A stretch of DNA of 29,654 nucleotides from a virus, in IMG/VR virus record IMGVR_UViG_3300046642_000300, positions 1 through 29,654 of that record. The stretch is one strand, 5' to 3'. The notes under the pieces were generated by a model. That model was not told the DNA's origin and made no database searches. It was given only the letters and a program-made list of their open reading frames with translations. This document shows positions 9,021-12,142 of the stretch, piece after piece (positions within the stretch are counted from its first letter, which is position 1; every line of letters begins with the position of its first letter). The position numbers and the translations under genes were made by a program.

Positions 9021-9524
9021 ATGGATGTCCACGCGTCGGCATGTATAGCTGGCAGTGCTTGGATAGTCGCGAGGACGAAACCGCGACAGGAAACCTATGC
9101 CTTTGACAACGTAGCCCGTCAGGGCTTTGAATCTTATCTCCCCAAATGTATTGACAACCAGACGCATAAGGTAGCCGTGTTATTCCCCGGTTACCTGTTC
9201 GTGCGCGAGGTAATGCAATGGTCGTGGCTAAAATCAACTTATGGCATATTAGACTTGGTTTATGGGAGTGTGGGCGCACCTGCAAAGTTATCCGATAAGG
9301 TTGTCGAAGAGATTAAACAGCGAGAAGGCGACAACGGCCTCGTGGCCTTGCCGTTAGAACGCTTCAGGCGTGGTCAACGGGTGCGGCTGCTAGGCGGCCC
9401 GTTCTTCGGTATGCTAGGACTGTACGAAGGCTTGAGCGCCCGTTCCCGTGTCACGGTGCTGCTTAGTCTGCTAGGTGCTTTGACTCCGGTCACGGTGCCT
9501 GAACGCTTGGTAGAAGTGGCCTAA
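9021..9524 (+). CDS. NusG/RfaH-like transcription factor
   Basis: 167 residues; CTAGGA lies 7 nt before the ATG. Residues 12-85 fit the NGN domain: SAWIVARTKPRQE, then a Tyr/Leu strand and VAVLFPGYLFVRE, the usual PLFPGYLF block. Residues 115-165 fit a KOW domain: FRRGQRVRLLGGPFFGMLG, then RVTVLLSLLG, then VTVPERLVEV. Such proteins bind the RNA polymerase clamp and suppress pausing or termination, or couple transcription to translation. A phage copy at the end of the early block could switch transcription toward downstream operons. It is followed at once by the structured non-coding leader at 9525-9763, which could be its own or its target's control element (inference). Confidence 0.85.
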   Translation: MDVHASACIAGSAWIVARTKPRQETYAFDNVARQGFESYLPKCIDNQTHKVAVLFPGYLFVREVMQWSWLKSTYGILDLVYGSVGAPAKLSDKVVEEIKQREGDNGLVALPLERFRRGQRVRLLGGPFFGMLGLYEGLSARSRVTVLLSLLGALTPVTVPERLVEVA

Positions 9525-9763
9525 AATCTATGGATGGGCCACTAAGGTTTTGATGGGACTAAAGTTTCGGCAAAAAACTGGCCGAAGCTTTGGGCGGTAG
9601 CGTGCCTAACCCCCTGTGGTGATAGAGCACTAAGCACCTTGGACTCCACCGTGAGGTGGGCATAAGTCGGTACAAGCCGAAACGGCTCAAGGCCAACGGG
9701 GGGTAACTTTTAAGAAACCTTGGGGAGGTTGTACTTAAACCCCTAGTCAAATAGGAGGCTGCC
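9525..9763 (+). ncRNA. Candidate structured 5' leader RNA
   Basis: 239 nt without a plausible gene. Pairings read by eye: hairpin 9559-9571 with 9581-9593 (13 bp including two G-U, loop 9572-9580); 9609-9615 with 9698-9704 (CCCCC/GGGGG core) enclosing 9617-9621/9628-9632, and 9637-9641/9688-9692; the latter encloses CCACC-GTGA-GGTGG (9646-9659, GNRA-type tetraloop) and AGCCG-AAA-CGGCT (9675-9687). Near the 3' end, CCTA (9742-9745) can pair with TAGG (9752-9755), covering part of the Shine-Dalgarno. The same C-run can instead pair with GGGG (9722-9725). That is the layout of a switchable expression platform. The first 40 nt hold a near direct repeat, GATGGGCCACTAA (9533-9545) / GATGGGACTAA (9552-9562). 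No known RNA class recognised. Confidence 0.55.
9753..9758 (+). promoter_or_regulatory. Shine-Dalgarno that points to an ATC start
   Basis: AGGAGG, a perfect anti-16S match, is spaced 5 nt from the in-frame ATC at 9764 but 23 nt from the first ATG at 9782. It therefore decides the start of the following gene. It overlaps the possible CCTA/TAGG hairpin at the end of the leader RNA. Confidence 0.7.
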
Positions 9764-10180
9764 ATCTGCGACTATAGCCTTATGCACCTTCAATCACGCC
9801 CTGCCAAAGTCAGCGACAAACTGACCTGTGGCAAGATCACTGGCGATGCTGGCTTTGCCAGCTACACCAACGGCCTGTTCGATGAGAACGACCCGACCGT
9901 TGCGGTATGCTTGCTTCCTGGCAGTGAAATCGCCTTCGAACGCGCCCCGGTAAAAATCCTGGGCATCAAGTTCGCCCGTAAAGCTGCTACAGCCACGTTC
10001 CGGCAAATCAACAAAGATGAGCTTATGAAGCATCATGATGCGCTGGAATTTGCTGACGGTGATGTGCGGCTAGTCCATGACCTTGAAGAAGGTCAGCGGA
10101 TGACCGTGCTTCAGCTTCCGGCAGCGCCGAAAACTGAGAAAGAAGCGGCGGACCAGAAGCGCCTTGAAGGCGTGGTCTAA
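9764..10180 (+). CDS. Conserved MCDYSL-family protein with an ATC start
   Basis: 138 residues if translation begins at ATC 9764 (132 from ATG 9782). The six extra codons read ATC-Cys-Asp-Tyr-Ser-Leu. The resulting N-terminus, initiator followed by CDYSLMHLQSRPAKV, is one I recall as the conserved start (MCDYSL...SRPAKVGDKL) of small proteins in Rhizobiales and relatives. Further family-like blocks are AVCLLPGSEIAFE, ATFRQINKD, HHDALEF and GQRMTVLQLPAAPKTE. Cysteine, Asp and two adjacent His residues could bind a metal, but the function is unknown. AUC initiation is inefficient and IF3-sensitive, as AUU is in infC. Together with the folded leader this suggests deliberate translational control. 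The gene is followed by a strong terminator, so it may be a single-gene unit. Confidence 0.75.
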   Translation: MCDYSLMHLQSRPAKVSDKLTCGKITGDAGFASYTNGLFDENDPTVAVCLLPGSEIAFERAPVKILGIKFARKAATATFRQINKDELMKHHDALEFADGDVRLVHDLEEGQRMTVLQLPAAPKTEKEAADQKRLEGVV

Positions 10181-11560: not shown

Positions 11561-11758
11561 TTATCTTCGTGTCATACGTTCGGCCCTACGGCGCAGTGCA
11601 GCCTTGTGACGTTCACGGTATTCGTGGCGCTTACCCTTGCAGGCGTAGCCGTCTTTAGGGTAGGGAATCTTTGCAGTGCGTGTCCTATGAACGGGCACGG
11701 GTATAATCTCAGACGGGTCGCGCCTGAGAAAGTCTGGAATGTCTAGGTTGTGGTTCAT
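11561..11758 (-). CDS. Small basic hypothetical protein
   Basis: 65 residues, first gene of the minus-strand operon, with GGAG before the ATG. Contains VPVHRTRTAKIPYPKDGYACKG and an Arg-rich tail RERHKAALRRRAERMTRR. A nucleic-acid or host-protein binder is plausible for a leading early gene, but no family is recognised. Confidence 0.65.
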   Translation of the reverse strand: MNHNLDIPDFLRRDPSEIIPVPVHRTRTAKIPYPKDGYACKGKRHEYRERHKAALRRRAERMTRR

Positions 11759-11781
11759 TGGTTTACTCCAATTACTATACT

Positions 11782-11810
11782 AATATATAGTCTTACCAAT
11801 ACATTGTCAA
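11782..11810 (-). promoter_or_regulatory. Near-consensus sigma-70 promoter
   Basis: On the minus strand, TTGACA (11810-11805) is separated by exactly 17 nt from TATATT (11787-11782). Transcription would begin about 15-20 nt upstream of the ATG at 11758, giving a very short leader with GGAG. It should drive the three-gene minus operon using host RNA polymerase. Confidence 0.82.
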
Positions 11811-11825
11811 ATCGAGAAACCAAAA

Positions 11826-11854
11826 AGGCGCATGAAATCAACGATTTAACGCCT
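11826..11854. promoter_or_regulatory. Inverted repeat in the divergent intergenic region
   Basis: AGGCG (11826-11830) pairs with CGCCT (11850-11854), and AAATC (11835-11839) with GATTT (11843-11847) around AAC. The sequence GCATGAAATCAA at 11830 recurs as GCATGAAATATCAA at 11860, exactly 30 bp (about three helical turns) downstream. It is placed between the minus promoter and the cold-shock gene, so it could be an operator or part of the cold-shock mRNA leader. Confidence 0.45.
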
Positions 11855-11929
11855 AAAATGCATGAAATATCAATGTCACGAAGAGTTTATCGGCACGTAT
11901 TAACGAAACCAAACAGGACTGTAAACCAA

Positions 11930-12142
11930 ATGAGTAGCGAGCGGATTATCGGTATAGTTAAGTGGTTCAACCGGGCTAAGGCGTGGGGCTTTATCGAAAG
12001 ACCGGGTGACAGAGATGTCTTCGTTCACATACGCGACTTGCCGCACGGCATTCAGGAAATGATGCCGGGGCAGAAAGTTTCGTATGTATTAGAGGACAAC
12101 CATAAAGGCCCACGAGCAAAGCAGGTAGAGTTGTTGCGATGA
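11930..12142 (+). CDS. Cold-shock domain protein (CspA-like)
   Basis: 70 residues from ATG 11930, with AGGA upstream. IIGIVKWFNRAKAWGFIERP followed by DVFVHI gives the RNP1 and RNP2 aromatic patches of the CSD beta barrel, although RNP1 has KAWGFI in place of KGFGFI. Longer in-frame versions starting further upstream add a non-homologous N-terminus and are rejected. It should bind single-stranded RNA or DNA as an RNA chaperone. Phages use such proteins to favour their own translation or antitermination. It overlaps the next gene by 4 nt. Confidence 0.88.
   Translation: MSSERIIGIVKWFNRAKAWGFIERPGDRDVFVHIRDLPHGIQEMMPGQKVSYVLEDNHKGPRAKQVELLR

Follow-up and report, generated by a model that had tools for sequence, protein, structure and literature searches.

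When a strong Shine-Dalgarno (SD) sequence holds the 30S subunit, translation can be initiated with fMet-tRNA at AUU, AUC or AUA, codons against which IF3 discriminates. The E. coli pcnB gene starts at AUU, and this rare start codon limits its expression. The infC gene starts with AUU in E. coli and with AUC in Streptomyces, where sigR has a GUC start that is repressed by IF3, a factor that represses non-canonical starts (PMC5472188). In S. aureus, AUA and AUU starts were described behind an extended SD in infC, cvfC1 (AUU) and ccpN (AUA), and the AUU and AUA sites tested gave about 10-30% of AUG output (PMC13009471). Gene finders usually accept ATG, GTG and TTG only, so that AUC and AUU starts (AUY) are invisible in phage annotation; we found no earlier report of such starts in phage genes in the open-licence literature searched. 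The locus described here appears to be of this known kind, combining a non-canonical start with a strong SD, in a gene family and a setting (phages, recurrence, alternation with AUG) on which the literature searched had no earlier report.

The start site of the window gene and its leader

The window, i.e. the whole stretch of DNA analysed, is a virus record of 29,654 bases. Around the start of the gene under study (Table 1) it reads CAAATAGGAGGCTGCC-ATC-TGC GAC TAT AGC CTT-ATG and, from position 9750, AATAGGAGGCTGCC-ATC-TGCGACTATAGCCTT-ATG; the six codons 9764-9781 correspond to I/M-C-D-Y-S-L. The initial annotation had proposed that an AGGAGG with a 5-nt spacing points at the ATC at 9764, which is exactly what the window sequence contains, and had taken this ATC as the start. 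This assignment held: the ATC matches the ATG position of homologues, and the in-frame TAG closes the frame above. Only GAG GCT GCC lies in frame between this stop and the ATC, and because of the stop no canonical start exists above ATG 9782. The gene therefore combines a strong SD at a suitable spacing with a start codon other than AUG, GUG or UUG, and no canonical start would give the full protein. A search for a near-identical sister of the window found none, the window's own ATC being read in one contig of one assembly. At the level of sequence, a genuine AUC start of the window gene is well supported.

Table 1 Features at the start of the MCDYSL-family gene in the window
Feature	Position	Strand	Remark
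Leader (239 nt) from the NusG/RfaH-like gene to the ATC	9525..9763	+	moderately structured
In-frame TAG, overlapping the SD	9752..9754	+	ends the frame 4 codons ahead of the start
SD AGGAGG, context ATAGGAGG	9753..9758	+	5 nt before the window ATC
Spacer CTGCC	9759..9763	+	
Start codon ATC, presumably decoded as initiator Met	9764..9766	+	aligns with the ATG of homologues
MCDYSL-family CDS, 138 aa, ATC as residue 1	9764..10180	+	
Codons 2-6 (CDYSL)	9767..9781	+	conserved at the protein level
Rejected start ATG (Met7)	9782..9784	+	no SD; internal Met in several ATG-type members

The start had also been described as lying behind a folded leader. Moderate folding was confirmed in the window (z = -2.6, with the SD predicted to be mostly paired), but this property is not general, since the other AUY loci have short leaders; the distance from the upstream stop to the start is 31 bases in phage locus L046 and 16 in the tail-collar gene described below. 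Folding predictions suggest that the leader may add control in the window, outside the arrangement shared by AUY genes. The leader contains a long hairpin (9558-9593) with a 13-bp stem and no U tract after it. The gene directly upstream (9021-9524) encodes a NusG/RfaH-like antiterminator, for which the structured leader could be a target. Elsewhere in the window, the protein encoded at 555-1316 matches Mom-like DNA modification proteins (phrog_1384), and a cold-shock-domain-like protein with an N-terminal extension was recognised by eye at 11750-12142.

The MCDYSL family and its start codons

Homologues were identified by tblastn on Bradyrhizobium and Nitrobacter plasmids. In all three plasmid homologues an ATG sits exactly at the window's ATC codon and the protein reads MCDYSL; the annotation of the two Bradyrhizobium copies, as hypothetical proteins, begins at that ATG. 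Scans with the single protein against viral contigs and annotated phages returned no MCDYSL homologue, and alignment-based scans were needed, which yielded 15 phage loci at first, 54 and 58 later on, and 362 matches in cells, 80 of which were kept. The unnamed MCDYSL family is common in Hyphomicrobiales and their phages; within one bacterial family of this order, MCDYSL genes were found in 27 of 61 genomes, with up to 9 copies per genome. The cellular hypothetical proteins are homologous to the window protein over nearly their full length (about 39-55% identity) and, unlike it, start at ATG. The statement of the initial annotation that CDYSL...SRPAKV is a conserved N-terminus of rhizobial (Hyphomicrobiales) proteins proved true, and none of the homologues read started at the equivalent of 9782, the six codons upstream being conserved. 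Further blocks present in the window protein are VC-x-LPG[TS]E in its central part, HHDALEF-x-DG and GQ-x-x-TVLQLP. No model in Pfam, PHROGs or NCBIfam matched the protein at E up to 0.1, and Rfam had no match at the locus. The predicted fold is beta-rich and of high confidence (mean pLDDT 88.5), and its comparison with the PDB and with viral models gave no convincing match.

The codon preceding CDYSL was read in each distinct copy; as a control for bias, later queries started at codon 2 and the last scan used internal motifs only. Codon 1 is ATC in the window and ATG in 138 of the 144 other copies. Among the 104 cellular copies, 103 had ATG, one had AAG and none had AUY. The 40 phage copies other than the window comprised 35 with ATG, three with ATT (L039, L055 and L273), one with ATC (L046) and one with CTG (L035); L047-L049 carry ATC as in L046. 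Including the window, AUY starts were thus found in five different phages (AUY in phage versus cellular copies, Fisher p = 0.005), which with the single CUG phage stand against 35 phage and 103 cellular copies with ATG. Neither GTG nor TTG occurred at codon 1 in any of the 40 phage and 104 cellular copies. AUY therefore recurs at codon 1 in a minority of copies, all from phages. Since ATG is present in most homologues, including L015, the closest to L046, AUC is not essential for function. The CTG of L035 (L035:2998) occupies the start position of a phage MCDYSL gene whose relative L273 has ATT.

Several other rows were set aside. L018/L070 has ATC before CDYSL and yet, four codons earlier, an ATG in the same frame (MCTAICDYSL), the 'non-ATG' rows L197 and L198 are chance internal matches, and L111 (L111:1998, from a Tardiphaga MAG), where AAG replaces ATG and another ATG lies upstream in frame, looks decayed or extended. 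Scanning the viral collection for AGGAGG-N4-7-ATH-CD[Y/F]SL retrieved 6 contigs, every one of them from the MCDYSL family. A looser AGGAGG/ATH scan added only L273 and four AUA matches in 10-codon frames unrelated to the family. The AUY pattern had no match in 397 genomes of the host order. In the tree, AUY members were scattered and a single AUY clade was unsupported, at low resolution; with five independent cases and a poorly resolved tree, the number of AUY origins is uncertain. We propose from these sequences that Hyphomicrobiales phages carry AUY at the MCDYSL gene in several separate lineages.

The AUY copies were associated with a strong SD. The site reads GATAGGAGGCTGCC-ATC in L046, AATAGGAGGCTTCC-ATT in L055, TATAGGAGGGTGTC-ATT in L039 and AGAGGAGTACGTGCC-ATT in L273, the last of which lacks the TAGGAGG-N5 layout. 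A ATAGGAGG-N5-ATY arrangement is common to L039, L046-L049, L055 and a second gene of the L055 phage, and TAGGAGG-N5-AUY is present in four of the five AUY phages, window included. The expectation that SD-N5-AUY followed by CDYSL would recur in other genomes was thus borne out in three further phages, the fifth AUY phage having a different spacing. AGGAGG was found upstream of four of the five AUY members and of 3 of the 32 members with ATG in phages (Fisher p = 0.0025); it also precedes 12 of 78 cellular ATG members. The AUU tail gene and four of the five AUY members have an in-frame TAG at the same position. In L046 the first in-frame ATG, GTG or TTG does not occur before codon 57, and in L273 the first canonical codon is a GTG at codon 9, without an SD, with none in the upstream frame; in the absence of a usable alternative, AUY is the only sensible start of these two genes. 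Of the ten TAGGAGG occurrences in the four AUY phages inspected, five are followed by N5-AUY, four precede ATG and one precedes no start. Among 50 further related records, TAGGAGG-N5-ATY was found only in contigs of the L046 phage. Across 1.37 Mb of contigs from related phages, a survey too noisy for a firm reading showed no clear general excess of AUY starts. ARAGORN, run to look for a special initiator tRNA, identified a tRNA-Gly as the sole tRNA of G006 and none in the window, G005 or G007.

Codons 2-6 behave as translated sequence. Four residues of CDYSL (C, D, S and L) do not vary in an alignment of 58 sequences, and Tyr/Phe is the sole amino-acid variation in this motif among AUY members, although their codons vary (Ser AGC/TCG/AGT, Leu CTT/CTC/CTA, Cys TGC/TGT, Asp GAC/GAT). 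This synonymous variation indicates that codons 2-6 are translated and that initiation occurs at or upstream of the AUY codon; given the in-frame stop, hardly any place but AUY is left for it. Pairwise comparisons gave dN 0.08 and dS 0.40 for L046 versus L015, and dN 0.23 and dS 1.63 for L273 versus L035. Four samples yielded the L046-L049 contigs, and despite 58 differences in 2008 nt between L046 and L049, TAGGAGGCTGCC-ATC is retained in both, which argues against a sequencing error. L015 is orthologous to the L046 locus, with 92% identity from about codon 8 on and 84% in the upstream gene. Start codon and SD strength differ together in this pair, L015 having ATG with AAAGGA and L046 ATC with AGGAGG. 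An HNH endonuclease-like gene, recognised by eye, lies in the MCDYSL leader of L015 (L015:250-755) and is absent from the L046 leader.

A second AUY gene was identified in the L055 phage (101 kb). The gene for its 326-aa tail-collar protein (PF07484; L174:9919-10899 on the minus strand, L182:1998) starts ATAGGAGGCGACA-ATT-TCA-GAT-CCC and has the ATAGGAGG-N5 layout. Its homologue in the L035 phage (L183) has GTG at the same codon.

Alternative explanations for the AUY codon

A start at ATG 9782, giving a protein without its first six residues, is very unlikely. Although this codon is the first canonical in-frame start of the window gene, and ATG is also found at codon 7 in L055 and codon 9 in L039, no SD lies ahead of it and Met7 is internal in ATG-type relatives (L005/L020, L006/L026, L013/L041 and L014/L042). 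In addition, C, D, S and L are invariant, with only synonymous changes at these residues among AUY members, and L046 has no alternative ATG before codon 57. We give equally little credence to a broken start codon, in which the true codon would be an ATG lost by mutation or sequencing error, or the gene a decaying pseudogene. A single change turns ATG into ATC, the homologues have ATG, and the cellular L111 copy with AAG may be such a case. However, the AUY codon class recurs in five phages and the L046-type contigs are four in number and from different samples; AUY copies have a strong AGGAGG and intact ORFs (dN/dS about 0.1-0.2), and a second gene of the L055 phage has the same layout. For the AUY group, sequence comparison largely refutes this explanation. 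Entry into the frame by another route, namely read-through of the TAG, reinitiation after a short upstream ORF or a frameshift from the upstream gene, is hardly credible. The TAG is identically placed in four AUY copies and the AUU tail gene, and in L046 it ends a frame of 36 codons that contains an ATG. Yet a T followed by AGGAGG at a 5-nt spacing produces this TAG automatically. In addition, little open frame lies above it in the window, L039, L055 or the tail gene, and none of these has a canonical start there; L273 has no TAG at that place, and the upstream gene of the window ends 239 nt before the start.

The remaining alternative accepts the AUC start and denies its regulation: a strong SD would offset a neutrally drifting codon and output would be ordinary. 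The co-occurrence of strong SDs with AUY fits this explanation, as does the contrast between L015 (ATG with AAAGGA) and L046 (ATC with AGGAGG) after insertion or loss of the HNH-like gene. Drift, however, should yield GTG or TTG first, and both codons are absent from the phage copies and from the 104 cellular copies, in contrast to the recurrent AUY; moreover, strong-SD AUU/AUA sites of S. aureus give only about 10-30% of AUG output (PMC13009471). We consider an unregulated AUC start unlikely, but by a good deal less so than the three explanations above. In contrast, it is very probable that the window gene has an AUC start under a strong SD, of the infC/pcnB/sigR type, which would hence be weak and probably IF3-sensitive.

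Comparison with infC and implications for Hyphomicrobiales phages

How such a start would work can be outlined by analogy. The near-perfect SD at ideal spacing would keep the mRNA bound to the 30S subunit, where AUC would pair imperfectly with initiator fMet-tRNA to give fMet-Cys-Asp-Tyr-Ser-Leu... As AUC is not AUG, GUG or UUG, IF3 should discriminate against it, so that output would be low and would rise when IF3 activity is limiting. From the infC, sigR, cvfC1 and ccpN precedents, together with infC of the host clade, we infer low-output, IF3-sensitive initiation; fMet use, IF3 control and a benefit to the phage are likewise suggested by analogy.

The infC gene of the host clade has AUU as its first codon in each of the 33 genome hits that were read (L343-L371, n = 29; L186-L189, n = 4), a likely annotation trap. 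Its sites resemble those of the phages in having a non-canonical AUY start after a strong SD, often with CC immediately before the start (in nearly all host-clade infC genes and four of the five AUY phage members), and the ribosome sites of infC L371 (ATAGGAGCTGTGTC-ATT) and phage L039 (ATAGGAGGGTGTC-ATT) are near-identical. Comparison of the window gene with infC is thus plausible as an analogy, but the product of the phage gene is a small, unrelated beta-rich protein, the comparison carries no implication of a feedback loop, and AUY is confined to a minority of the family. As in cvfC1 and ccpN of S. aureus, where the arrangement is conserved across relatives (PMC13009471), a weak start codon appears to be offset by an extended SD; those genes are cellular and experimentally proven, whereas the phage genes are described here from sequence, and different family members have different start codons. 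In Streptomyces sigR, repressed by IF3 (PMC5472188), and E. coli pcnB, a rare start codon limits expression, as is proposed for the phage gene, but these are single host genes with measured regulation.

The alternation of AUG with AUC or AUU and the matching change of SD make L046 and L015 a natural pair in which to study the trade-off between SD and start codon, and natural AUG/AUY pairs also allow asking whether phages exploit IF3 control. As a tentative idea, to which we give somewhat less than even weight, Hyphomicrobiales phages may have adopted an infC-like AUY site repeatedly for the MCDYSL gene, and on one occasion or more for a tail gene, with translation that would track host IF3 activity, i.e. 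an IF3-sensing switch. Collectively, the data presented suggest that phages with AUY starts use a weak, possibly controllable start signal.
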